Of a stretch of DNA of 46,832 bases, positions 23,638 to 37,529 are shown piece after piece. The notes beneath the pieces are model-generated. The model saw nothing but the letters and a program-made list of their open reading frames with translations, ran no database searches and was not told the origin of the DNA. The DNA is from an uncultured Bacteroidales bacterium (GTDB taxonomy: Bacteria > Bacteroidota > Bacteroidia > Bacteroidales > Bacteroidaceae). The stretch lies in the NCBI GenBank assembly GCA_902791295.1, contig CADAVI010000010.1, positions 25,864 through 72,695 of the forward strand, in the 5' to 3' direction. The position numbers were made by a program, and so were the translations under genes. Numbering within the stretch: position 1 is the stretch's first letter; the number at the start of each line of letters is the position of its first letter.

Positions 23638-26600
23638 TTACTTCAACTGACCTGCAGCGTTGTACTGCTTGCCGTTCTTCACGATGACAATCTTACCGTT
23701 GATGAGGTACTTGCCGTCCTTCAGAGCGCCTTCAGCACTTTCGCTTTCAATCGAACTGATGCCGGTGGGGCTGTCGTTCGAGTAACCAATCTCGGTAATC
23801 ACAACGGGAACAGCGTCGTCAGCCTGAGTCAGACCGAAGGTGGTGTTCAAACCGTCGCCACCTGCGAGATAGCTCCTGCCGGTAGCGTTGATGTTCTCAC
23901 CGATGTTGCCGCACTCGTCAATCCTCCATTCGAGGATGATGGTGCCGTCGGCTTCGGTCTTGATGTGCGTGGGAGCAACCTGAGCGCCGTTGTCGTTCTT
24001 GCCGTTCAGCCACCAGAGGTAGGACTTACCTTCTTCGGTGCTGATGCCCTTGGCCTTGATGTAGAAGTACTCGATGTTCTCCACATAGTAGGTCTTCGAG
24101 GTCTTGAAGTTGAGGTTCACGTTGTTGTCGCCGGTCTTGTTCACCGTGATGGTGCCCATGTCGTCGTCGGCAGTAACGTTTTCAGGACTGATGCGGCCGG
24201 CATCGCCTGCAACCCACTCGCTGGGAACGAACTCGTAAGCAAACTCCTCAACGGGCTCGGGAATGGACTCCTGGAAGCCGATGTAGCTGATGACTGCGGG
24301 AACAGCATCGTCAGCCAGCGTCATGCCGAAGGTGGTGCTCCAGCCGCCCAGATCGTTGAACTCAGTATCTTCGATGCCGAGCTTGCCGCCAATGGGAATG
24401 GTCACGCAATCCCAAGCGAATACGGTCTTGCCTTCTTCCTCGTAGATGCTCGTGGGAGCAATCTGCGAACCGTTGTTGGTGTTGTTCAGCCACCACAGAT
24501 AGCTTGCAGCCTCACCGGTGGAGAGACCGGTAGCCTTGATGACGAAGTAGCGCTGTTCGGCCTTCACCTCATAGGTCTTGGCAGAACGGAAGACGAGGGC
24601 CACGTTGTTGGCACCGCTCTTGTCCACGGTGATGGTGCCGGCTTCGTCGTCAGCAACCACGTTTGCAGGAGCAATGCGGCCGGCATCGCCTGCAATCCAC
24701 TCGCTGGGAACGAACTTGTAAGACAAGTCCTCAACTTCCTTGAAGAAGGCATTAACAGTCACAGCACCTGCGGGCATTGTGAATGTGCCGACATTATTCT
24801 CAACGGGAATCATCTCGCCTATCATGCCACGGCTATAGCCGAGGAAATCCAACTCATAACCTGCATCGGGAGTTACGGTAACCGTCACGGTCTCGCCCGA
24901 AGCAGCTTCGGTCTTATCGACTGAAACGGAGCCGTTTTCTGTTTCACCTACGGTGATGGCGTACATTGTAACGGGATCGCCCAGACGAGTGAGCGTCCAG
25001 GGACCAATCACGGTGTAGTCACCGGCTGCGGGCTGAGCGTCCTTCGCGATACCGATGGTCACGTCGCCGTCAGCGGTCAGGTTGAAGGTAACTTCGTTGA
25101 CATACTGACCGGCATTGAACCATGCCTGTACGGCAGCACTGCTGTTGGGCACGTACTTCTCGTTGATGACAACAGAGCCGCTACCTGCAGCGTAGTCGGT
25201 CTCGGAAGCACCGTCGTAGCGGTTCTGAACCAACGTGCTGACAGTCTTCTCACCGATGGTGGCATAGAGAGAAGCGAACTTCGTCGTCTCACCATTGGCA
25301 ATGAAGTTGGCCTCATCAGCCTCACTACCGCTGAAGCGGTAAGCAGCCTGTGCCGTCAGCTTGTACTGACCTGCGGGCAGACTGATGGTCTGCTTGAAGT
25401 CGAACTGAGCATTATTGCCAGCCTTCACGATACCGGAGCCGTCGATAAACTTCGTTCCGGCATCATCGAATCCCTTAGGATCGGTGCCGGTCAGATTGGC
25501 ATTCACGATGTAGTCCGTGTAGTCGGTCTTAGGCTCGAAGGCTGCAATCACATTGACAGCAGCTGCAGGCATTGCGAAGCTTGCGGTGTTACCGTCAATC
25601 GTGATGTCCACCTTCTCCTCGTTGAGCATGTAGTAAGCGCCGGCGAACTGATAGTTGGCAGCGGGAGTAGCGGTCAATGTCACCGTCTCACCTTCCTCAG
25701 CCTCAGCCTTGTCGGCTACAACGGTGCCGTTTTCTGCATCAGCCACAGTGATGGCATACTTTGCAGGAGCGGGAGCCGGACCGTAGTAGGTCAGACGGAA
25801 GTTGTCGAAGATAACCCACTGATGTACATTCTCGCCATTCTTGACACCTACGGTCAAAGCACCGTCCTCATTGAGTGTAAACTCGATGGGATCAATCGTG
25901 TACTTGCCTTCGGTGAACGAGTAAGAAGCATCAGTCATGCTGCCTTCATCTCCGGTCTTCACGGGAACCTCAGCAGTAGCATCACCGATATAGAATACGG
26001 GAGCAGCTTCCACTACGTTGTCGTCCTGACGATAGAAGCCCTGAGCCGTCAACTTGTAAACACCGGCAGGAGCGTTAGCGATGGTCTGGTAAATATTGAA
26101 TGCAGCATGGTAAGACTCTGCATTACCGTTACCGTTGCCGCCATCGCAACCGCCGCCCAGATTCTTGTTGTTGCCGGAAACGAACTCAACCGTCCAAGCC
26201 TCCTGGCGCTGATCGTTGCGGTTGAAGTCGGCATCCTTCAGCAAGAAGGTGGCGTCCACGCCGTTGTCGGCAGTGGCTTCGGCCATAGCAGCCAAACCGT
26301 CTGTCATGCGGCCAGCCTCCAAAGTAGCAGCATCGATAAACTGCCAAGCATAAGGCTCGCTGACAAATGCGAGGTTGTCGTTCTCGTCAACGCCGATGTA
26401 CTGAGCACCGTTGCCGATGCTGTACTCCTCAGCACCAATCTGCTCAATAGCCCATGCGAATGCTCCACCGTCCATATAGAGACCATCGCTGAGGAAGTGG
26501 CTTTCGCCACCGTTGCTTACGCGAGAGTCAATCTTTACCTTCTTGCTTTCGTCAGCAGTCAGGGTCAGGTCGAGACCTGCAGCGTTGACAATACCGCGAG

Positions 26601-29600
26601 TGCCCCAAGCGTGACCTGCGGCCATATACTTGCCGTCGGCGTTCTTCACATAGTACTTGCCGTCGAAGGCCACATAGTTGGCAGCCTTGAAGGCGTCGAT
26701 AGCAGCGTTGAGGGCTGCGATTGCGGCCTCAAACTCGGCAATGTTCAGCTTGTTGCTGGCCTGAGCGGCTTGAGCGGCCTCAATAGCGGCAGCAAACTCT
26801 TCCTTGCCATTGGTCTTGTAAGCGTCAGCGTTCAGAGCCTCAGCCTTGGTGATGGCAGCAGCCATCTCAGCCTTGTCAAGAGCGTAGAGCGCCTTGGCGC
26901 TGGTGAACCATGTGAGCTGATAAATCTGCATCGAGTGCCAGTTGGTACCAGCTTTAGCCTTACCCATACCGAGCTTGATGGTACCGTCAGTCACTTCAAC
27001 GTCGAACTGGCGGAAGTTGTTCTCTGTAGTGGAAGTAGCGATGTGAGCTACGATGAACTCCTGCTGGTCGTTAGCAAATACGTATGCAACGTCCTCTGCG
27101 CCGTCGGCCATATCACTGTCGAAACCGCGACCGCTGGTGAAGAAGGCATTGGCATAGAAGCCCACCTTATAGGTACCGTTGGTCAGGCCGGTGATATTCT
27201 GGTAGATAATCTGACCGGTAGTGGCTGCAGTACTCTCGTAGTTCTCTCTCAGGTTGACGTTGGTGCGTCCGTCGTAGGTATTGATGGCAGGAGCGTACTG
27301 CGTACCGCAAACGCCGGCAGCGTCATTACCCTCGAACTTCTTCCATCCGTCAACAGCAACCTTAGCGGTCTGATCGCTCTCCTGGTCGGCATTGTCAGCA
27401 TTGAACTGATCAATAGCGGCCTGCAGAGTGGCGACATCCTCGTCGGTGACGGTCTCAAGGGCCTTGAAGGCGTCGATGGCATCGCGCAGTTTACCTACAG
27501 CGACAGCATCGTCGTCAGCAGCCAGAGCCTCGGCAGTGGCAAGTGTAGCATAAATCACGTGAGATGCTTCCGAAGCCTCAACGGCAGTCTGGAGACCGCC
27601 TTTGACATTGGTGAGCACGTTCATGTCGAGCTCCCCGTTGTCAAGTGCCTGCTGAGCGATGGCCACAGCGTTGTCGGTGGCCTCCTTCGTTGCGGCACTC
27701 TGCTCGTCGCCCACAGCGTTGGCGCGAGCGATGAGCGCGTTGATAGCGTCGTACTCTGCCTGAATCGTGGCAGGAGAGGTCAGATAGGTCAAGCTGAAGT
27801 TGTCCACACCGGCAATCTGCTCTGCAGTAGCGGTTTCGGCGAAGGTGTAAGCAATCTCCACCGTCTTCTCTTCATTGAGGAGGAACTTGATGTCCTTGTA
27901 CCCCCAAACGGGTTCGGTGAAGTTCGCGGTCTTGCTGATCTCGTCATAGCTAACAGACAGGGTGGCCGTTGCGGATGCAGCACTCAGATAGCCTTCCGCG
28001 TTGAGCTGATATACACCTGCGGGCAGCGTCACGTTCTGCGACAGCTTGATGGAGCTTGAAGAACCCCAACGGAAGCGAGCCCAATAAACATTGTTGCCGC
28101 CGTCGGCAGGCTGCTCCTTGCTCTCAAACTGATTCCAGCTGGTGCAACTGCTGTTGAGAGACGTCATATCGTTTGATTCGCCGCTGCTCCAAACGACAGT
28201 CCAGCCTTCGGGCTGATAAATGTCGCGATCGCTCTTAGGCTGCTCCTGAGAAACATAGCTGCCCTCGAAGTCGTAGTTGGCAATCAAGGGACTCCAGTTG
28301 GCGTTGTCGGAAGTCTGAGCCTTGGTAGCGGCGACGAGAGCGGCCTTGCAAGCCGTCTTCTGCTCATCGCTGACAGCATCGAGGGTCCTGGCCTCATAGG
28401 CGGCCTTCACCTCGGCGACGGTCTCGTTGGCAGCGTAGGCAGTCTGACCGGCCTCGTCCAGGATAGAAGCAGCATTGATAACAGCTGCAGCCTCTTCGTA
28501 GTTGGCCACGCTGGTTTGGGCTGCAGCATTGGCAACATCCAGATTGGCGGCCATTGCTATCAAAGCCTCAATATCGGAGCTCTCCTCGTAGCCTGCGGTA
28601 GCAGCAACGGCATTGCTGAGGTTCTGCTCTGCGGTAGCGTTCATCACGCTGTTGAGCAAGCCCACAGCAGTAATCAGACGGGTTGCCACTTCTGCTCTGA
28701 ACTCAGAGGGATCGAGGTCGCCCGTGCGCTCGTACTTCACATTCTTGATGGCTACCCAACTGCTGTTGGCGCCGGCCACGTTGAAGTTAATGTTGAGCAC
28801 GCCGTCCACGCCGACCTTACCGATAGCCTGAACGGGGGTCACATAGAACGAACCGTAGTTGAGTTCGCCGCTGACAGCAGAAGCCTCACCGCCGTTGACG
28901 TCCAGAGACAGACCGCTCACGGGAGCCGTCTCGTTATTGGTCAGGCGCAGACGCACGAGAGCGGATACGGTGTAGATACCGTGAGGCAATCCCGTCATCT
29001 GAGCGTGGATGAGTTTGTCGGCCAGTTTGTTGCCGTCACCCGTCCAATATTCAAGGAAAGGCTCCGTCATATTCGAGCCGTCTGCATCGCCTTCTACGCT
29101 CCAGGTGTTGATGTGATAGCTGCCCCAGTTTCTCGGACCTTCATCAAAAGCCGAAATCAGGAAATCGTCGATACCGACCGTAGCACGCCATCCGCGATTA
29201 CCCAGAATGTTGTTGGTAAAGCTTGCTGCCTCCTCGTTGGCCCACGTGCCGTCGTTGTAGGCAGCCAAAGCGGTATCGTAACCAAGGTTGGCATAAGCCT
29301 CAGCGGTATAGACGTTGGTGTTGGCCAAAATCTCGGTCAACTCGTCCAAACCTGCCTTACCGGCAGCGTAAGCATTAGCAGACGTTTGGGCTGCGGTAAC
29401 AGCTGCGCTCAACACATTGTAGTTGGCAATGGTCTGAGCGGACTGGAAAGAAGAAAGAGCTTCGGTCAGAGCAGTCTGCACATCGGCCTTCATCGCACCG
29501 GAAATGGCTTCTGCCTGAGCGATGATGGCATTGGCGTCCTCTTCAGATACCTCATTGTTATAGTAAGTGTAGCTGATGCCGTTGAAAAGGAACCAGCAAC

Positions 29601-30600
29601 CACCCCAGAATGCCTCGGAAGCAGCATCAAGCACAAGCTGACCGTCATCTGCCACATAGGTGAACCCTTCGGTAGTGTAACCGCCGTTGTTCACAATGCT
29701 GACAAAATCACCGGTACTGTTGGGATTACCGTCGTTGACACGATCCTCATACCAAGCTTTGAAGCGAATCACATTGCCGTTGGCAGTCAGATAGGTGTCG
29801 CTCACGGGATAACCGGCATTGCCCATCGTGGTGCAAGTGGCATTATTGCCCAGTCGCTTCATACCGCGAGCTGACACCTTGTAGATACCGGGCTTCAGGC
29901 CGCTAATGGTGCGGGTGTAATGGCCATTGCCACACTGATACATCTCCGTACCATAACTGGCATTCCAGTTGACGTTTCCGCCCCTGTCGTTGTGTTTTGT
30001 TGCCGTCCAATTCGCAGATGTGGGCACGCCATCGTTGGTTGTCGTTGATGCCCAATTGTCAGCATCGGTGACAACATCGTTCAACGTCTTACCCTCCGGA
30101 ATTTCAATACCCTTCAACGCCGCTACCGCAGCATCCTGAGCTGTAACTTTTGCTGCCAATACTGCATCATACTGAGCTTGCGTCAGGAATTTCCAGACAC
30201 TGGCAGTAGCAGACAGGCTAATGGCTCCGGCATTAGCGGGGCAAGTGATGTAGTTGTCACCGTTCTTCAAGGTGTAGCCATCGGTGGCGTTGCCTTCGGG
30301 AGTAAAGGCTACAGGACTGCCGTTGTCGGTATAACAATTGCTGCCCAAACCGCCAGTGGAGCCTGCAACGGTGAGGTCGTACATGCGCAATGTATAGGCG
30401 CCGGCGTTGACACTCACCCTCCAAGGCAGACCCACAGGCTTTGCCACACCCTGAGTACCCCAATTCTCACCTCGGGTCAGGAAAAGACCTGCTTCCTCAT
30501 TATAGAGGTAGTAGATCCCGTCGTTCTCCGGCTCCACCTGCGCCTTGATGCCCGACACGAAGCCAAGCAACACGGCCAATAGGAATAGAAGTTTTTTCAT
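23638..30600 (-). CDS. Giant modular secreted/surface protein with FIVAR-like helices, beta-sandwich modules and InlB B-repeats
   Basis: A 2320-residue protein with a signal peptide (MKKLLFLLAVLLGFVSGIKA). Residues ~25-140 and again ~1310-1420 are related blocks (GIYYLYNEEAGLFLTRGENW; DGKYYVKNADGKYMAAGHAW). About six beta-sandwich modules follow the pattern 'LPxGxYKLxAxG' (for example LTNGTYKVGFYANAFF, ISLPAGQYKLTAQAAYRF), as in galactose-binding-like domains. They alternate with Ala-rich helical FIVAR-like segments (for example ~1240-1303). Two divergent InlB B-repeats start near 1613 and 1878 (YAITVADAENGTVVADKAEA; YAITVGETENGSVSVDKTEA). Two tandem ~160-residue modules begin near 1957 and 2118 (FVPSEWIAGDAGRIAP; FVPSEWVAGDAGRISP). 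The end, KYLINGKIVIVKNGKQYNAAG, looks like a Bacteroidetes secretion or anchoring tail. An adhesin or glycan-binding role is inferred. Confidence 0.88.
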   Translation of the reverse strand: MKKLLFLLAVLLGFVSGIKAQVEPENDGIYYLYNEEAGLFLTRGENWGTQGVAKPVGLPWRVSVNAGAYTLRMYDLTVAGSTGGLGSNCYTDNGSPVAFTPEGNATDGYTLKNGDNYITCPANAGAISLSATASVWKFLTQAQYDAVLAAKVTAQDAAVAALKGIEIPEGKTLNDVVTDADNWASTTTNDGVPTSANWTATKHNDRGGNVNWNASYGTEMYQCGNGHYTRTISGLKPGIYKVSARGMKRLGNNATCTTMGNAGYPVSDTYLTANGNVIRFKAWYEDRVNDGNPNSTGDFVSIVNNGGYTTEGFTYVADDGQLVLDAASEAFWGGCWFLFNGISYTYYNNEVSEEDANAIIAQAEAISGAMKADVQTALTEALSSFQSAQTIANYNVLSAAVTAAQTSANAYAAGKAGLDELTEILANTNVYTAEAYANLGYDTALAAYNDGTWANEEAASFTNNILGNRGWRATVGIDDFLISAFDEGPRNWGSYHINTWSVEGDADGSNMTEPFLEYWTGDGNKLADKLIHAQMTGLPHGIYTVSALVRLRLTNNETAPVSGLSLDVNGGEASAVSGELNYGSFYVTPVQAIGKVGVDGVLNINFNVAGANSSWVAIKNVKYERTGDLDPSEFRAEVATRLITAVGLLNSVMNATAEQNLSNAVAATAGYEESSDIEALIAMAANLDVANAAAQTSVANYEEAAAVINAASILDEAGQTAYAANETVAEVKAAYEARTLDAVSDEQKTACKAALVAATKAQTSDNANWSPLIANYDFEGSYVSQEQPKSDRDIYQPEGWTVVWSSGESNDMTSLNSSCTSWNQFESKEQPADGGNNVYWARFRWGSSSSIKLSQNVTLPAGVYQLNAEGYLSAASATATLSVSYDEISKTANFTEPVWGYKDIKFLLNEEKTVEIAYTFAETATAEQIAGVDNFSLTYLTSPATIQAEYDAINALIARANAVGDEQSAATKEATDNAVAIAQQALDNGELDMNVLTNVKGGLQTAVEASEASHVIYATLATAEALAADDDAVAVGKLRDAIDAFKALETVTDEDVATLQAAIDQFNADNADQESDQTAKVAVDGWKKFEGNDAAGVCGTQYAPAINTYDGRTNVNLRENYESTAATTGQIIYQNITGLTNGTYKVGFYANAFFTSGRGFDSDMADGAEDVAYVFANDQQEFIVAHIATSTTENNFRQFDVEVTDGTIKLGMGKAKAGTNWHSMQIYQLTWFTSAKALYALDKAEMAAAITKAEALNADAYKTNGKEEFAAAIEAAQAAQASNKLNIAEFEAAIAALNAAIDAFKAANYVAFDGKYYVKNADGKYMAAGHAWGTRGIVNAAGLDLTLTADESKKVKIDSRVSNGGESHFLSDGLYMDGGAFAWAIEQIGAEEYSIGNGAQYIGVDENDNLAFVSEPYAWQFIDAATLEAGRMTDGLAAMAEATADNGVDATFLLKDADFNRNDQRQEAWTVEFVSGNNKNLGGGCDGGNGNGNAESYHAAFNIYQTIANAPAGVYKLTAQGFYRQDDNVVEAAPVFYIGDATAEVPVKTGDEGSMTDASYSFTEGKYTIDPIEFTLNEDGALTVGVKNGENVHQWVIFDNFRLTYYGPAPAPAKYAITVADAENGTVVADKAEAEEGETVTLTATPAANYQFAGAYYMLNEEKVDITIDGNTASFAMPAAAVNVIAAFEPKTDYTDYIVNANLTGTDPKGFDDAGTKFIDGSGIVKAGNNAQFDFKQTISLPAGQYKLTAQAAYRFSGSEADEANFIANGETTKFASLYATIGEKTVSTLVQNRYDGASETDYAAGSGSVVINEKYVPNSSAAVQAWFNAGQYVNEVTFNLTADGDVTIGIAKDAQPAAGDYTVIGPWTLTRLGDPVTMYAITVGETENGSVSVDKTEAASGETVTVTVTPDAGYELDFLGYSRGMIGEMIPVENNVGTFTMPAGAVTVNAFFKEVEDLSYKFVPSEWIAGDAGRIAPANVVADDEAGTITVDKSGANNVALVFRSAKTYEVKAEQRYFVIKATGLSTGEAASYLWWLNNTNNGSQIAPTSIYEEEGKTVFAWDCVTIPIGGKLGIEDTEFNDLGGWSTTFGMTLADDAVPAVISYIGFQESIPEPVEEFAYEFVPSEWVAGDAGRISPENVTADDDMGTITVNKTGDNNVNLNFKTSKTYYVENIEYFYIKAKGISTEEGKSYLWWLNGKNDNGAQVAPTHIKTEADGTIILEWRIDECGNIGENINATGRSYLAGGDGLNTTFGLTQADDAVPVVITEIGYSNDSPTGISSIESESAEGALKDGKYLINGKIVIVKNGKQYNAAGQLK

Positions 30601-30974: not shown

Positions 30975-31005
30975 TTTGCAGATTACGAAAAAAGTCGTAC
31001 TTTTG
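30975..31005 (+). promoter_or_regulatory. Canonical TTTG-N19-TACTTTTG promoter of the trp operon
   Basis: TTTG (30975-30978) is followed by exactly 19 nt and then TACTTTTG (30998-31005). The predicted start is near 31012, about 40 nt before the leader peptide. Confidence 0.8.
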
Positions 31006-31051
31006 CAGTCGAAAACATACAAAACGCACGTTAAAGCACAAAACGCAAGCA

Positions 31052-31108
31052 ATGAACATGATGGCAAACTTCTGGTGGTGGCGCAACTCAAGGTTCCAAA
31101 GATCGTGA
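31052..31108 (+). CDS. trpL: trp operon leader peptide with three tandem Trp codons
   Basis: An 18-codon frame reading MNMMANFWWWRNSRFQRS, with TGG-TGG-TGG at 31073-31081 and TGA at 31106-31108. It lies between a canonical promoter and an intrinsic terminator directly upstream of trpB. Three Trp in 18 residues is very unlikely by chance, and the arrangement matches ribosome-mediated attenuation: when charged tRNA-Trp is short, the ribosome stalls at the Trp run. The Trp codons can pair with CCGCCG (31114-31119), and the end of the frame (TCGTG, 31103-31107) can pair with CACGA (31167-31171) in the terminator, a possible antiterminator. The pairing scheme is my inference. Confidence 0.85.
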   Translation: MNMMANFWWWRNSRFQRS

Positions 31109-31150
31109 GAAGACCGCCGTATGCACCTGAAAAATTGCAAGAAGAAATAA

Positions 31151-31185
31151 AAAGGCCTGTCGCTCCCACGACGGGCCTTTCTTTT
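31151..31185 (+). terminator. trp attenuator terminator
   Basis: AAAGGCCTGTCG (31151-31162) pairs with CGACGGGCCTTT (31169-31180) with one wobble across a 6-nt loop, followed by CTTTT. It lies 42 nt after the leader peptide stop and 46 nt before trpB. Confidence 0.85.
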
Positions 31186-31230
31186 GAGATAAGGAAACAT
31201 AAACAACAACACATATACACAAGAACAACG

Positions 31231-32439
31231 ATGGAAAAGACCTACAATGTGGATGAGAACGGCTACTACGGGGAGTTCGGCGGCGCCTATGTGCCCGAGA
31301 TTCTCTACGCCACCGTGGAGCAACTGCGCTCCTCGTACCGCGACATCATCGACTCGGAAGAGTTCCAAACGGAATTCCGCACCCTGCTCTGCGACTACGC
31401 CGGACGACCCTCGCCCCTCTACTTGGCCCGACGTCTGAGCGAGCGCTACGGCTGTCGCCTCTACCTCAAGCGCGAAGACCTCAACCACACCGGAGCGCAC
31501 AAAATCAACAACACCATCGGGCAAATCCTCCTGGCACGCAAGATGGGCAAGACGCGCATCATTGCCGAGACGGGCGCCGGACAGCACGGTGTGGCCACCG
31601 CCACCGTGTGCGCCCTGATGGGCATGCAGTGCGAAATCTTCATGGGCGCCACCGACGTGGAGCGTCAGCATACCAACGTGGAGAGAATGAAGATGTTGGG
31701 CGCCAAAGTGAACCCTGTGCGCACCGGCAACATGACGCTCTCCGACGCCTGCTCCGAGGCCATCCGCGACTGGTGTCAGCATCCCTCCGACACCTACTAC
31801 CTTGTGGGCTCGACGATGGGACCCCATCCCTACCCCGACCTCGTGGCCCGCATGCAGAGCGTCATCTCGGAGGAAATCAAATGGCAGTTGCAGGAGAAAG
31901 AGGGGCGCGACCGGCCCGACACACTCATCGCCTGCATCGGTGGCGGCAGCAACGCAGCCGGCACCATCTATCACTATATGGACGATGAACGCGTGAGAAT
32001 CGTGCTCGCCGAAGCCGGCGGCCACGGATGGCAGACCGACCACACCGCCGCCACCATACACCGCGGTTCCACCGGCATTTTGCACGGCGCGAAGATGCTC
32101 GTGATGCAGGACGACGACGGACAGATTGAAGAGGCCTTCACCATCTCGGCCGGACTCGACTATCCGGGCGTCGGCCCGATGCATTGCCACATGGCCAAAA
32201 GCGGACGCACCCGTGTGCTGAGCATCAACGACGACGAAGCCATCCGCGCCGGCTACGAACTGACACGCATGGAGGGCATCATCCCCGCCATCGAGTCGGC
32301 CCACGCGCTGGCGGTGCTGCCGAAACTCGAGTTCCGAAAGAACGAAGTGGTCGTGCTCACCGTGAGCGGACGCGGCGACAAAGACGTGGAAACCTATCTC
32401 AACAACAAATCAATGGCAGGAGAATATGGAAACTTTTAA
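31231..32439 (+). CDS. trpB: Tryptophan synthase beta chain
   Basis: A 402-residue PLP enzyme joining indole and serine to make tryptophan. The start MEKTYNVDENGYYGEFGGAYVPE is typical of TrpB1, and the PLP lysine is K91 in HTGAHKINN. The glycine-rich phosphate loop is CIGGGSNAAG, and the C-terminal section has ALAVLP and VVLTVSGRGDKD. The reading frame is open upstream, but through the attenuator, so I use the ATG at 31231. It is the first structural gene of the operon, ahead of trpE, an order usual in Bacteroidetes, and it overlaps trpE by 14 nt. TrpA, its partner, is the last trp gene. Confidence 0.97.
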   Translation: MEKTYNVDENGYYGEFGGAYVPEILYATVEQLRSSYRDIIDSEEFQTEFRTLLCDYAGRPSPLYLARRLSERYGCRLYLKREDLNHTGAHKINNTIGQILLARKMGKTRIIAETGAGQHGVATATVCALMGMQCEIFMGATDVERQHTNVERMKMLGAKVNPVRTGNMTLSDACSEAIRDWCQHPSDTYYLVGSTMGPHPYPDLVARMQSVISEEIKWQLQEKEGRDRPDTLIACIGGGSNAAGTIYHYMDDERVRIVLAEAGGHGWQTDHTAATIHRGSTGILHGAKMLVMQDDDGQIEEAFTISAGLDYPGVGPMHCHMAKSGRTRVLSINDDEAIRAGYELTRMEGIIPAIESAHALAVLPKLEFRKNEVVVLTVSGRGDKDVETYLNNKSMAGEYGNF

Positions 32440-33847
32440 GTTCACCACCGTGAGTCGCACCATCCTGGGCGACCTCCACACGCCCGTCGGCGTCTATCTG
32501 CGCCTGCGCGACCTCTTTCCGCAGAGTGCGCTGATGGAGTGCTCCGACTATCACGACGCCACACATTCGCGCTCGTTCATCGGCATCGACCCCATCGCCT
32601 CCGTCGCCGTGGCTCACGGAGAGGCCATAGTGAAATATCCGGACGGAACAACGAAAACACACGAAATCACCGAAGAGTTTGGTCCTGCTGACACCATCCG
32701 TGCTCTCATCAACAACATCAGCATCGAGGGGGAAGGCAGCCAGCTCTTCGGACTTTTCGGATACACCTCGTTCAACGCCGTGCGCTATCTCGAGCCCATC
32801 GACGTGAAGGACGAGAAGCAGGAGAAGAACGACGCGCCCGACATCCTCTACATCCTCTTCCGCACGGTGATTGCTTTCGACCACCACAGCAACCGCCTCA
32901 CACTGGCCACGCTGGGGACGGAAGAGACGCTCGAGGGCGTGATGCGCGCGATGAACAGGAGCAACGTGCAGACCTACGACTTCCGCCCCGTCGGCGACGT
33001 GCGCTCCACCCTCACCGATGAGGAGCACAAGGCCAACATCCGGAAGGGCATCGCCCACTGCAAGCGCGGCGACGTGTTCCAAATCGTGCTTTCGCGCCGT
33101 TTCATCCAGAAATATCAGGGCGACGACTTCAAGCTCTACCGCGCCCTCAGAAGCATCAATCCGAGTCCCTACCTCTTCTATTTCGATTTCGGCGGCTTCC
33201 GTATCTTCGGCTCGTCGCCCGAGACACACTGCCGCATCGACAAATGTTCTGCGGTCAACGGTCAACGGTCAATGTTCAAAGCCTACATCGACCCCATCGC
33301 CGGCACCACACGTCGCACGGGCGATGCCGAGGCCGATCGCAAAGGCGCCGAATTTCTGCGCAACGACCCCAAGGAGAATGCCGAACACGTGATGCTGGTG
33401 GATCTGGCCCGCAACGACCTGAGCCGCAACTGCCACGATGTAACCGTGGATTTCTACAAGGATTTACAGTATTACTCGCACGTGATTCACCTCGTCTCTC
33501 GCGTCTCCGGCACGCTCGACGACGGCGCCGATCCACTGAAGGCCTTCATGGACACCTTCCCCGCCGGCACGCTGAGCGGAGCGCCCAAGGTGCGCGCCAT
33601 GCAGTTGATTTCGGCCTACGAACCCCACAACAGAGGCGCCTACGGCGGCTGCATCGGCGTGATAGGTCTCGACGGCTCGCTCAACCAGGCCATCACCATA
33701 CGCACCTTCGTGGCCCGCGGCGGAGAACTGTGGTTCCAGGCCGGAGGCGGCATCGTGGCCCGCAGCAACGAAGAGTATGAACTGCAGGAAGTGAACAACA
33801 AACTGGGCGCTCTGCGCCGCGCCATATCGCTGGCGGAAAAGATGTGA
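32426..33847 (+). CDS. trpE: Anthranilate synthase component I
   Basis: A 473-residue enzyme converting chorismate to anthranilate with ammonia from TrpG. The allosteric Trp-binding region carries LMECSDYHD (36-44, compare LLES in other TrpE). The catalytic C-terminal half has RGDVFQIVLSRRF, GSSPETH, DPIAGTTRRTG, NAEHVMLVDLARNDL and the final GGGIVARSNEEYE. Between CRID and YIDPIAGT, where relatives have only a couple of residues, there is an extra segment of about eight residues (A276 to M283) encoded by three tandem CGGTCAA units. Feedback inhibition by Trp is expected. It overlaps trpB by 14 nt. Confidence 0.95.
   Translation: METFKFTTVSRTILGDLHTPVGVYLRLRDLFPQSALMECSDYHDATHSRSFIGIDPIASVAVAHGEAIVKYPDGTTKTHEITEEFGPADTIRALINNISIEGEGSQLFGLFGYTSFNAVRYLEPIDVKDEKQEKNDAPDILYILFRTVIAFDHHSNRLTLATLGTEETLEGVMRAMNRSNVQTYDFRPVGDVRSTLTDEEHKANIRKGIAHCKRGDVFQIVLSRRFIQKYQGDDFKLYRALRSINPSPYLFYFDFGGFRIFGSSPETHCRIDKCSAVNGQRSMFKAYIDPIAGTTRRTGDAEADRKGAEFLRNDPKENAEHVMLVDLARNDLSRNCHDVTVDFYKDLQYYSHVIHLVSRVSGTLDDGADPLKAFMDTFPAGTLSGAPKVRAMQLISAYEPHNRGAYGGCIGVIGLDGSLNQAITIRTFVARGGELWFQAGGGIVARSNEEYELQEVNNKLGALRRAISLAEKM
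33252..33272 (+). repeat. Three tandem CGGTCAA heptamers inside trpE
   Basis: CGGTCAA occurs at 33252-33258, 33259-33265 and 33266-33272, perfect and contiguous, followed by TGTTCAA. Three units keep the frame (21 nt); two or four would shift it. Such GGTCAA-type strings otherwise occur between genes in Bacteroidales (recollection). Confidence 0.9.
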
Positions 33848-33856
33848 TTTACCACT

Positions 33857-34420
33857 ATGAAAACAGTTATCATAGACAACTACGACTCCTTCACCTACAA
33901 TCTGAGCCATATGGTGAAGGAACTGGGCGCAGAAGTCAGCGTCGTGCGCAACGACCGCTTCTCCATCGGTGAAATCGAAGCTTTTGACAAGATTATCCTG
34001 AGTCCCGGTCCCGGCATTCCCTCCGAAGCCGGTCTGCTGACGGAAGTGATACGCCGCTACGCCGGCAGGAAACCCATGCTGGGCGTCTGCCTCGGACATC
34101 AGGCCATAGGCGAAGTGTTCGGCGGACGGTTGGAAAACCTCTCCGAAGTGTTTCACGGCGTGGCAACTCCATGCCACATCGTCGCTGACGACCCGCTGTT
34201 CAAAGGACTTCAAACCGACTTTGAGGTGGGGCGCTACCACTCTTGGGTGGTCTCCAAAGAAGATTTCCCCGAGTGCCTCGAAGTGACTGCCGTGAGTGAC
34301 GAGGGACAGGTGATGGCGCTGCGCCATCGCACGATGGAGATACACGGCATACAGTTTCACCCGGAGAGCGTGCTGACCCCCGAAGGGCGCACCATCATCC
34401 AAAACTTCCTGGCACTATGA
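33857..34420 (+). CDS. trpG: Anthranilate synthase component II (glutamine amidotransferase)
   Basis: A 187-residue class I amidotransferase that supplies ammonia to TrpE. The oxyanion strand is ILSPGPGIPSEAG, the nucleophile is C78 in GVCLGHQAIGE, and the His-Glu pair is in IQFHPES. It starts MKTVIIDNYDSFTYNL, as is usual. It lies 9 nt after trpE and overlaps trpD by 4 nt (ATGA). It is a stand-alone TrpG, not fused to TrpD as in enterobacteria. It might also serve folate synthesis (PabA), but the position indicates the Trp role. Confidence 0.96.
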   Translation: MKTVIIDNYDSFTYNLSHMVKELGAEVSVVRNDRFSIGEIEAFDKIILSPGPGIPSEAGLLTEVIRRYAGRKPMLGVCLGHQAIGEVFGGRLENLSEVFHGVATPCHIVADDPLFKGLQTDFEVGRYHSWVVSKEDFPECLEVTAVSDEGQVMALRHRTMEIHGIQFHPESVLTPEGRTIIQNFLAL

Positions 34421-35415
34421 AAGAACTCCTTTACAAACTGCTCAACCACGAGACGCTTTCACGCGAAGAGATGAAGCGCGTGCTCATCGGCATCACGCAG
34501 AGCGAATATCCCAACGAACAAATCACCGCCCTGCTCACGGCGCTGCAGATGCGCGGCGTGACGGTGGACGAACTGCTCGGATTCCGCGACGGCATCCTGG
34601 AGACCGGCGTGCCGGCTCTGCTCGACTGCGACCGCTACATCGACGTGGTCGGCACCGGAGGCGACCGCAAGAACACCTTCAACATCTCCACCACCGCCTG
34701 CTTCGTCATCGCCGGCGCCGGCTACAAGGTGGCCAAGCACGGCAACTACGCCGCCACCTCCGTGAGCGGAGCCAGCAACGTGATACAGCATCACGGCATC
34801 AGGTTCACCGACGATGTGGACCGCCTCAACCGCAGCCTCAACGAAGCCGGCATCGTGTATCTCCACGCCCAGCTCTTTGCCAAGGCAATGAAGTTTGTGG
34901 GCCCCATCCGCAAGGCGCTGCCCTTCCCCACCATCTTCAATCTGCTGGGACCGCTCGTGAATCCCTCGCAGCCTAAATGCCAATTGCTCGGTGTGGCCAA
35001 TCTCGACCAGATGCGCCTCTACAGCAACGTCTATCAGACGCTCGGCATCGACTACGGCATCGTCAATTCCATCGACGGATACGATGAAATATCTCTGACG
35101 GGCGACTTCAAAGTGACCACCCCGCACTACGAGCGCGTGTTCAGTCCACAGGACCTCGGATTCGACTGCGCCAAACCCGAAGAACTCGTCGGCGGCGCCA
35201 CAGAGGAAGAGGCCGCCGAAATCTTCGACGCCGTGTTGGAGAATCGTGCCCTGGAGGCGCAGAAGAACATCGTGCTGGCCAATGCCGCCTTCGGCATCCA
35301 GGTGCTTGAGCGCGGCGGGAAGAGTATCGAAGAATGTGTCGCCATCGCCCGCGAATCCATCGACAGCGGCAGCGCGTTGCGCACCTTCCGAAAATTCGTT
35401 GAACTCAACTCGTAA
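34417..35415 (+). CDS. trpD: Anthranilate phosphoribosyltransferase
   Basis: A 332-residue enzyme joining anthranilate to PRPP. The glycine-rich PRPP loop is VVGTGGDRKNTFNISTT (from residue 78), followed by KHGNYAATSVSGASNV, and the mid-section FAKAMKFVGPIRKALPF and FNLLGPLVNPSQP are diagnostic. The N-terminal helical domain begins MKELLYKLLNHETLSREEM. The start overlaps the trpG stop by 4 nt; the gap to trpC is 5 nt. Confidence 0.97.
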   Translation: MKELLYKLLNHETLSREEMKRVLIGITQSEYPNEQITALLTALQMRGVTVDELLGFRDGILETGVPALLDCDRYIDVVGTGGDRKNTFNISTTACFVIAGAGYKVAKHGNYAATSVSGASNVIQHHGIRFTDDVDRLNRSLNEAGIVYLHAQLFAKAMKFVGPIRKALPFPTIFNLLGPLVNPSQPKCQLLGVANLDQMRLYSNVYQTLGIDYGIVNSIDGYDEISLTGDFKVTTPHYERVFSPQDLGFDCAKPEELVGGATEEEAAEIFDAVLENRALEAQKNIVLANAAFGIQVLERGGKSIEECVAIARESIDSGSALRTFRKFVELNS

Positions 35416-35420
35416 GCCCT

Positions 35421-36155
35421 ATGGACATACTGCAGGAAATCACGGCGCACAAGTTCGATGAAATCGCCGCGCTCAAAGCCAAAAAGCCGTCGCTCCGGGA
35501 AGCTCTTCTGAAGTCCGACAGCGGCATCATCGCAGAATTCAAGCGACGCTCTCCCTCCAAAGGCTGGATTAAGGAGGACGGACGCGCCACAGAGATTCCC
35601 CTCTCGTATGAGCAGAACGGCGCAGCCGCCGTCAGCATCCTCACCGACCGGGACTACTTCGGCGGTTCGGATGACTTCATCCGCGAAGCGCGCAAGAGCG
35701 GCGTCACCGTGCCGATACTCTACAAGAACTTCGTCATCGACGAGTTGCAGCTCGCTGCTGCGGCGCTCTGCGGCGCTTCCGCCGTGCTGCTCATCGCGGC
35801 CTGTCTGACGAAGGACGAATGCCGGCGCCTTTTATGTAAAGCGCACGAACTGGGATTGGAGGTGCTCCTGGAAATGCACTCGGAGGCAGAATTGGAATAC
35901 GCCGATCTTCAGCCCGACCTCTGCGGCATCAACAACCGCCACCTGGGCTCGTTTGTCACCGATGTGGAGACATCGTTCCGACTGGCGGAACTGCTGCCGA
36001 AAGACGCCGTCAAGGTGAGCGAGAGCGGCATCTCGGATCCGCAGACGGTGAAGGCGCTGAAAGAGGCCGGTTTCAACGGGTTTCTCATCGGTGAGAACTT
36101 CATGAAAACCGAAGCGCCCGGATTGGCGCTGCATCAATTCATCGCCGCCCTATGA
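35421..36155 (+). CDS. trpC: Indole-3-glycerol phosphate synthase
   Basis: A 244-residue TIM-barrel enzyme. Signature EFKRRSPSKG (39-48) carries the substrate lysine; AVSILTDRDYFGGS, LYKNFVIDELQL, LGLEVLLEMHSEAEL, GINNRHLGSF and VSESGI follow in the expected order. The usual 'RKDF' is LYKNF here, with the lysine kept. It is separate from TrpF, which follows with a 4-nt overlap. Confidence 0.96.
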   Translation: MDILQEITAHKFDEIAALKAKKPSLREALLKSDSGIIAEFKRRSPSKGWIKEDGRATEIPLSYEQNGAAAVSILTDRDYFGGSDDFIREARKSGVTVPILYKNFVIDELQLAAAALCGASAVLLIAACLTKDECRRLLCKAHELGLEVLLEMHSEAELEYADLQPDLCGINNRHLGSFVTDVETSFRLAELLPKDAVKVSESGISDPQTVKALKEAGFNGFLIGENFMKTEAPGLALHQFIAAL

Positions 36156-36763
36156 TACGCAAAGTGTGCGGCATGCGCGAGGCGGAGAACATCCGCGAAG
36201 TTGAAGCCCTCGGCATCGACTGGATGGGGTTCATCTTCTGGGCGCATTCTCCGCGCAACGTCGCCGCCAAGCCAGACTATCTGCCCGCAAGGTGCAAGCG
36301 CGTCGGCGTGTTCGTAAACGCCGGCCTGCCTTTCATTAAGGAAAAGGCGCAGGAGTTCACTCTCGACATCGTCCAACTGCACGGGCACGAAGACGAAGAC
36401 TTCATCCGGCAAGTGCGCCGCGAACTGCCCGCTCTCTCCGTCGTCAAAGCTCTGAATGTGGCCCGCGAAGAGGATTTGGAACAAAGCCGGCGCTACGAAG
36501 GACTCTGCGACTGCCTCCTCTTCGACACGAAAGCGGAGAAAGTCGGCGGCAACGGCAAATCCTTCGACTGGGACATTCTCCGCAACTACCAAGGCGACAC
36601 GCCCTTTCTGCTCAGCGGCGGCATCGGCCCCGACGACAGAGAGCGTCTGCGCCGCTTTCATCACCCCAAAATGGCCGGCATCGACCTCAATTCGCGATTC
36701 GAAATCCGTCCGGCACTCAAAGACATCCACCTGTTAAAATCATTCCTCCATGAACAAGATTAA
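36152..36763 (+). CDS. trpF: Phosphoribosylanthranilate isomerase
   Basis: A 203-residue TIM-barrel enzyme performing the Amadori rearrangement. It starts IRKVCGM with the catalytic cysteine, then VQLHGHED, LLFDTK, FDWDIL, FLLSGGIGP and GIDLNSRFE, with the usual late aspartate. The start overlaps trpC by 4 nt and the end overlaps trpA by 14 nt. Confidence 0.95.
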   Translation: MIRKVCGMREAENIREVEALGIDWMGFIFWAHSPRNVAAKPDYLPARCKRVGVFVNAGLPFIKEKAQEFTLDIVQLHGHEDEDFIRQVRRELPALSVVKALNVAREEDLEQSRRYEGLCDCLLFDTKAEKVGGNGKSFDWDILRNYQGDTPFLLSGGIGPDDRERLRRFHHPKMAGIDLNSRFEIRPALKDIHLLKSFLHEQD

Positions 36764-37529
36764 CGAAGTGTTTGCCCAAAAGGGCGAACGCAAACTGCTG
36801 AGCCTTTATTTCTGCGCCGGAGCGCCCACACTCAACGGCACGGGCGACGTCATTCTCGCAATGCAGCGTCGCGGCATCGATTTCATCGAAGTGGGCATCC
36901 CCTTCAGCGACCCTCTGGCCGACGGCCCCGTGATACAGACAGCGGCCACAAAGGCGCTGCGCAACGGTATGTCGCTGCGCACACTCTTCGGACAACTGAA
37001 GGAAATCAAAGAACAAGTCAGCGTGCCCCTCATCCTGATGGGTTATCTCAACCCCATTCTCCACTACGGCATCGAAGCCTTCTGCCGGTCGTGCGTCGAG
37101 AGCGGCGTGAGCGGCATGATTATTCCCGACCTGCCCTTCAAGGACTATCTGGAAACGGTGAAGCCCGTCGCCGACCGCTACGACCTGCGCGTCATCATGC
37201 TCATCACGCCGGAAACATCGGAGGAGCGCATCCGCTTCATCGACAGTCAGACCGACGGTTTTATCTACATGGTGAGCGGCGCCTCCATCACCGGCGCCAA
37301 AGACCGCTTCGACGACGCCCAACAGGACTACTTCCGGCGCATCAACGGCATGAACCTCACGCATCCCCGCATGATTGGCTTCGGCATCAGCAACAAACGC
37401 ACGCTACAGGCAGCCCAAGCGGCCGCCGACGGCGTCATCATCGGTTCTAAATTCGTGTCGCTGCTCGAAGAGGCCGACGGCAATGCCGACGAGGCGCTCG
37501 AACGGCTGTTTACGGCACTCAACAACTAA
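36750..37529 (+). CDS. trpA: Tryptophan synthase alpha chain
   Basis: A 259-residue TIM-barrel enzyme that cleaves indole-3-glycerol phosphate and passes indole to TrpB. The catalytic acids correspond to E47 and D58 in FIEVGIPFSDPLADGP. Further motifs are LMGYLNPI, GMIIPDLPF, FIYMVSGASITGA and the phosphate-binding end FGISNKRTLQ with GVIIGSKFV. The start overlaps trpF by 14 nt. It closes the trp enzyme set; a patatin gene follows after 11 nt. Confidence 0.97.
   Translation: MNKINEVFAQKGERKLLSLYFCAGAPTLNGTGDVILAMQRRGIDFIEVGIPFSDPLADGPVIQTAATKALRNGMSLRTLFGQLKEIKEQVSVPLILMGYLNPILHYGIEAFCRSCVESGVSGMIIPDLPFKDYLETVKPVADRYDLRVIMLITPETSEERIRFIDSQTDGFIYMVSGASITGAKDRFDDAQQDYFRRINGMNLTHPRMIGFGISNKRTLQAAQAAADGVIIGSKFVSLLEEADGNADEALERLFTALNN

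Follow-up and report, generated by a model that had tools for sequence, protein, structure and literature searches.

The window analyzed here, a 46,832-nucleotide stretch of DNA from an uncultured, Prevotella-like Bacteroidales bacterium, carries on its + strand the genes trpB-trpE-trpG-trpD-trpC-trpF-trpA (31231..37529), identified in this order by NCBIfam matches that exceeded the curated cut-off for trpB, trpG, trpD, trpC and trpA and that were best matches below the cut-off for trpE and trpF. These genes form the operon presumed to be regulated by the leader described below, and the ATG of trpB lies at 31231 (+ strand). The gene upstream of the leader (23638-30600) is on the - strand, divergent from the adjoining trp promoter, and encodes a 2320-residue repetitive protein with a start that appears signal-like by eye. 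The promoter, TTTG-N19-TACTTTTG (30975..31005, + strand), was read from the sequence and consists of TTTG (30975-30978), a 19-nt spacer and TACTTTTG (30998-31005), a motif known as the Bacteroidetes-type promoter. It is followed by an 18-codon leader peptide ORF, MNMMANFWWWRNSRFQRS (31052..31108, + strand; ATG at 31052, TGA at 31106-31108), containing three consecutive Trp codons, TGGTGGTGG (31073-31081, + strand); elsewhere in the window there are four further copies of TGGTGGTGG, all on the - strand. Downstream of the ORF lies an intrinsic terminator (31151..31185, + strand), which covaries in relatives and whose arms (31151-31162 and 31169-31180) form 12 bp, one of them U-G, with a loop at 31163-31168 and a T-rich run at 31178-31185. 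All the elements that the initial annotation had placed before trpB, i.e., a promoter, a Trp-Trp-Trp leader and a 12-bp terminator, were thus read from the sequence, with TACTTTTG lying just to the left of where that annotation started.

Segment 2 of the leader, UCGUGAGAAGACCGCC (31103..31118, + strand), overlaps the leader stop codon and is able to change its partner. On its upstream side the segment 1 partner CUCAAGGU (31087..31094, + strand) pairs with 31102-31109 to give a sequestering hairpin, assigned by covariation, and on its downstream side the proposed antiterminator partner (31154..31171, + strand), assigned by the pairing of own versus swapped segments, comprises the terminator 5′ arm, the loop and the first bases of the 3′ arm. 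An outer stem of the sequestered state (31064..31138, + strand) was taken from the predicted fold only; in this fold the Trp codons are paired with CGCC (31115-31118) and CACC (31124-31127), and by the Rfam alignment the stem is the counterpart of that modelled by RF01692. Two pairings proposed in the initial annotation recurred in our analysis, since GGCG (31080-31083) of the Trp codon region pairs in the predicted fold with the CGCC (31115-31118) of its CCGCCG element, and TCGTG (31103-31107) is able to pair with CACGA (31167-31171). The fold of the window leader gave a z of -1.49 relative to shuffles, and a generic terminator scan of the window listed the leader hairpin on the - strand only. 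The window by itself provides the weaker evidence, and the case made here rests on comparison with relatives. An Rfam Thr_leader candidate in the window (25.4 bits of 55) matched mainly the terminator hairpin and was rejected.

Conservation of the leader and its alternative pairings

The best 80 of 409 loci from a TrpB scan, 83-97% identical and drawn from records titled Prevotella, Prevotellaceae, Bacteroidaceae, Bacteroidales or Xylanibacter, were combined with the window to give 81 regions, for each of which 400 nt upstream of trpB, or the sequence as far as the contig end, was examined. In 79 of the 81 regions we found a short ORF that contained TGGTGG in frame, compared with a mean of 0.98 and a maximum of 4 after single-base shuffling, and the W-rich leader that the initial annotation proposed to look for upstream of related trpB genes is therefore conserved. 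TGGTGGTGG was present in 77 of the 81 regions. Of the 79 leaders, 75 carried three Trp codons, 3 carried two and 1 carried four. The promoter pattern, with a spacer of 18-22 nt, preceded 76 of the 78 leaders having 110 nt of upstream sequence (single-base shuffles, 0.02). The regions without a leader ORF were L069 and L070, the latter having the W-run in a contig that begins inside the leader. The initial annotation had named relatives with an intact trpB but neither W-run nor terminator as evidence against attenuation; such a case exists singly, in L069, whose intact trpB without the W-run leader is immediately preceded by another gene, and L003 (95% TrpB identity) has an intact leader and W-run and a terminator without its 3′ arm, owing either to a natural deletion or to an assembly fault.

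A set of 119 regions was then composed of the window, the 80 TrpB loci and 38 wider loci, the last being the best-scoring RF01692 matches from the family and class and no random sample. Leader ORFs with an ATG were unmatched in L069, L070 and L085, leaving 116 regions, and 109 were kept after the script missed the terminator in seven (L003, L011, L029, L030, L031, L050 and L051), although a hairpin was visible by eye in all of these except L003. The L085 leader (approximately 1476-1613, - strand) differs by one base from that of L084 after the WWW, with the frame shifted through segment 2. Alignment A1 contained 77 of the 79 near leaders, with L003 and L031 (a duplicate of L029) omitted.

The element UCG[U/C]G[A/G]G was found in 79/79 leaders examined; measured from the first base of the final Trp codon, its distance is 24 nt in 68 leaders and 21-25 nt in the rest. 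With respect to the leader ORF, segment 2 covered the last codon and the UGA stop in 47 of the 79, lay after the stop in 24 and inside the ORF in 8, and it was out of frame with the leader in 6; given that its sequence is kept whatever the reading-frame status, it is conserved as RNA and not as peptide. Upstream it pairs with CUC[A/G]AGA, with 99.6% of cells paired in the 77-row alignment, and the covariation score and paired cells of this sequestering hairpin were reached by 0/500 shuffles; changes on both sides occurred in 2 of 7 pairs, a number usual in shuffles (489/500). Across the 77 sequences CUCA/UGAG alternates with CUCG/CGAG in the hairpin. Columns 33/51/128 read A/U/G in 33 sequences, G/C/G in 26, A/U/A in 17 and G/U/G in 1, and in 77/77 the base in column 51 can form a standard pair in the sequestering as well as in the antiterminator alternative.

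In the terminator, 97.7% of cells were paired with changes on both sides in 8 of 12 pairs (0/500 shuffles). In the antiterminator, 83.8% of cells were paired on fixed alignment columns, above all 500 shuffles by about 1 point, and its covariation score was reached by 53/500 shuffles. The compensatory stem changes anticipated by the initial annotation are therefore evident for the leader hairpin and the terminator, but the fixed-column covariation of the antiterminator did not stand out from shuffles. The weaker result for the antiterminator on fixed columns stems from a difference in register between two groups of species, UCGUG (51 sequences) and UCGCG (26), which ruled out one fixed register for all 77 relatives. 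The sequestering hairpin and the antiterminator are mutually exclusive, as is characteristic of an attenuator.

The duplex between segment 2 and the terminator was then compared for own and swapped partners (n = 109), giving -17.99 and -15.11 kcal/mol, respectively, and 0/2000 permutations were as good over all 109 leaders and likewise within the near (72) and wider (37) sets. Two control segments showed no preference for their own terminator, their pairing being equalled or bettered by 750 and 998 of 1000 permutations. Since such permutation tests are inflated by kinship, weight was put on the agreement across unlike segment 2 sequences, and examples of segment 2 and partner from the wider set are UCGUAAG/CUUACGA, UCGUGA/UCACGA, GAACAGC/GCUGUUC and GGCAGCC/GGGUUGCC. 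Taken singly, only 21 of the 109 segment 2 sequences ranked their own terminator within the top 5% of partners, and for 30 of the 109 more than 10/200 dinucleotide-shuffled versions of segment 2 paired as well; these 30 include the window, whose duplex is unexceptional (22/200). In 96/109 leaders the stretch most complementary to the terminator 5′ arm plus loop was located at the leader stop (25.4 expected by length); the window is one of the 13 misses, and there the same terminator piece gave -15.6 with the stretch over the Trp codons and -15.4 with segment 2.

A proposed three-state switch and its alternatives

Masked folds were calculated for RNA extending to the first 4 bases of the terminator 3′ arm, with a ribosome footprint of assumed size held unpaired. 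For the window, the predicted antiterminator probability was 0.01 without a ribosome, 0.76 with a ribosome at the Trp codons and 0.00 with one at the stop, and the near set (72) had corresponding medians of 0.01, 0.96 and 0.00, compared with 0.01, 0.61 and 0.00 for the wider set (37). The antiterminator exceeded a probability of 0.5 in 55/72 near and 24/37 wider leaders with the ribosome stalled, in 8/72 and 3/37 without a ribosome, and in 0/109 with the ribosome at the stop. Sequestering of segment 2 in the absence of a ribosome was only partial in the folds, with a probability above 0.5 in 31/72 near and 25/37 wider leaders (window, 0.58). In full-length equilibrium folds the terminator was preferred in every state, and the outcome must therefore depend on timing.

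Judged from the sequence comparisons, the trp leader is very probably a ribosome-mediated transcription attenuator that senses charged tRNA-Trp via translation of its WWW leader peptide, for which we infer translation of the leader frame, stalling within it and a kinetic competition between the pairings. With no ribosome on the leader, segment 2 (31103-31118) would be held in the leader hairpin and the terminator would form. When Trp is plentiful, a ribosome at the leader stop codon would cover segment 2, and again the terminator would form. When Trp is scarce, a ribosome stalled on the Trp codons would cover the upstream partner CUCAAGG and leave segment 2 free to pair with the emerging terminator 5′ arm and loop, so that RNA polymerase would continue into trpBEGDCFA. 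The trp genes would thus probably be read mainly when tryptophan is scarce. The earlier proposal of ribosome-mediated attenuation with TCGTG as a competitor for the terminator gains support from the comparison of relatives, which suggests extending it to a longer segment (31103-31118 versus 31154-31171) and to a second partner (31087-31094) that would be able to hold segment 2 when no ribosome is present.

We consider it improbable that, beside a genuine terminator, the W-rich frame has no role as a sensor and a Trp-binding protein or a tRNA controls the leader in a TRAP-like or T-box-like manner. Nothing direct speaks for such control, although translation of the leader is itself deduced and the genome is only 85.11% complete; in that genome, at this completeness, there was no PF02081 or PF01371 match at E ≤ 0.001 that would indicate TRAP or TrpR, the window contained no T-box match at the gathering cut-off, and the spacing of 24 nt between the last Trp codon and segment 2 (68/79) suits a ribosome footprint. 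A slightly smaller chance is given to the pairings being by-products of a likeness between segment 2 and the terminator arm, in a unit that is no more than a partial terminator determining the basal level of expression. The non-significant fixed-column covariation of the antiterminator and the ordinary duplex of the window would agree with this, but the own-versus-swapped result held in the near and the wider sets with negative control segments, and the run of Trp codons is kept across both sets.

That the hairpin terminates an upstream transcription unit appears the least credible of these explanations, with a probability close to nil. Its position between two genes would allow such a role, but the long gene at 23638-30600 is on the opposite strand, so that the hairpin does not end that unit, and it is separated from this gene by the promoter motif.

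Relation to RF01692 and to other attenuators

Compared with the RF01692 (Bacteroid-trp) model, the window scored 35.8 bits (E 0.014) and did not reach the gathering cut-off of 49, for which reason it is filed as a divergent relative and not as a formal member; the cut-off was reached by 0/80 of the nearest TrpB loci (best 80 of 409). Like RF01692, the window leader lies upstream of Bacteroidetes trp genes, has a leader with tandem Trp codons and a long leader stem over these codons, and in the alignment shares AAAAAGGC(C/U)UGUC at the 3′ end, whereas the structure line of Rfam is one stem without a terminator hairpin or antiterminator. Model R1, for which only the window and its near relatives were used, matched 38/38 best-scoring RF01692 loci, 19 of which are over Rfam's cut-off, indicating common descent with recognized members. 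Opposite-strand matches of R1, over the same hairpins, scored up to 37.2 bits; 27 of the 38 loci score higher, and the 11 at or below this value may therefore rest largely on the terminator. These data suggest that the window leader is most likely a divergent relative of RF01692, and this kinship means that a Bacteroidetes trp leader RNA was already in print in 2010 and that the attenuator is less new than the title of the initial annotation suggests. What the sequence comparison adds outside the RF01692 model is the UCG[U/C]G[A/G]G element with its predicted pairing either with CUC[A/G]AGA or with the terminator loop and arm.

By script, 37 of the 38 best-scoring RF01692 loci yielded both a leader ORF and a terminator, and the gene following these loci was trpE in 17, trpB in 13, trpD in 7 and none in 1 (contig end). 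The model built here matched 110/151 genomes of the family at E ≤ 0.01, where the weaker matches may be terminators alone. RF01692 matched 64/151 family genomes at E ≤ 0.1 (29 over the cut-off) and only 34/295 genomes in the class at E ≤ 0.1 (10 over the cut-off), and a genome of the window's own genus (G095) had a match of 71.3 bits.

Related leaders were also observed at other loci. In L152 (G087:C1) and L153 (G069:C6) the trp operon is split, and distances of approximately 3.4 and 1.7 kb separate trpB-E-G from trpD-C; a WWW leader and a terminator precede both halves, those of trpD-trpC being a very similar second copy. In L157 (G078:C2) and L159 (G104:C2), a WWW leader and hairpin precede a gene 28-29% identical to the window TrpB, which suggests that these distant TrpB-type genes share the leader control. 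Upstream of pheA in the window's own genome (L121, 1304-1450; G000:C30) there is a GTG-started, Phe/Tyr-rich frame, VQNVHNFYFGFYAYFYFSNE, and its stop is immediately followed by the 10-nt GAGCGAGACC, which is perfectly complementary to the terminator arm GGTCTCGCTC; Rfam gave no significant match for this leader (Phe_leader, 17.4 bits, E 2). Of 30 pheA loci of the family, this one included (relatives L123-L151), 28 showed a Phe/Tyr-rich frame with a hairpin behind it, in a survey where frames were chosen by Phe plus Tyr content and hairpins by eye, with no shuffle control. Among ATG starts, no His-run frame was found before hisG of the same genome.

It seems to us rather likely, if well short of assured, that in many Bacteroidota lineages trp (and phe) synthesis is under three-state ribosome-mediated attenuators that are complete and move along with the genes, including the halves of split operons and distant trpB-type genes. 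Genes of Bacteroidota are mostly started without Shine-Dalgarno sequences. If the attenuator reading is true, tight timing between ribosome and polymerase would be a working and selected feature in this phylum, and the leader would offer a direct route to asking whether transcription and translation are coupled there. For this major gut phylum it would also provide a full, testable switch with all competing segments positioned; the Rfam catalogue has a single stem and passes over these relatives.

In 2010, Weinberg et al. (PMC2864571) included RF01692 in a table as a probable Bacteroidetes cis-regulatory RNA, and in the same year a survey stated that, before its own Firmicutes case, no leader-peptide system was known outside Proteobacteria and Actinobacteria (PMC2965389). 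A 2019 paper set Bacteroid-trp beside the classical trp attenuator and noted it before the trp operon of Flavobacterium psychrophilum (PMC6414381), and a 2021 transcriptome of this species reported strong indications of attenuation by leader peptides upstream of amino-acid operons, together with a conserved element before pheA without an Rfam match (PMC9723704). The F. psychrophilum leaders are like the window in that leader-peptide attenuation is suggested before amino-acid operons, and differ in belonging to another family of the phylum and in that the sections consulted give no antiterminator (PMC9723704, PMC6414381). The consulted portion of a Bacteroides thetaiotaomicron map mentions leader-peptide-like small frames, and the words ‘trp’ and ‘tryptophan’ are absent from it (PMC7366714). 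Among the open-access titles and abstracts listed on the subject, we found none describing an antiterminator for Bacteroidetes trp leaders.

The trp attenuator of E. coli is defined by a three-state logic, tandem Trp codons, a stop codon beside segment 2 and a terminator, and works by Vitreschak (2004) and Lopatovskaya (2010) reportedly deal with attenuators outside the enterobacteria. The enterobacterial Trp_leader (RF00513) resembles the window in all these respects, including the three-state logic proposed here; its model gave no significant match to the window (15.2 bits of 41, E 2.2). The window differs in its operon order, trpBEGDCFA, and in having three adjacent Trp codons where the enterobacterial trp leader has two; in addition, its proposed antiterminator spans the terminator loop and the start of the 3′ arm besides the 5′ arm, unlike that of RF00513. 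The kind of switch is already known, and the form present here is a divergent one that is missed by Rfam.
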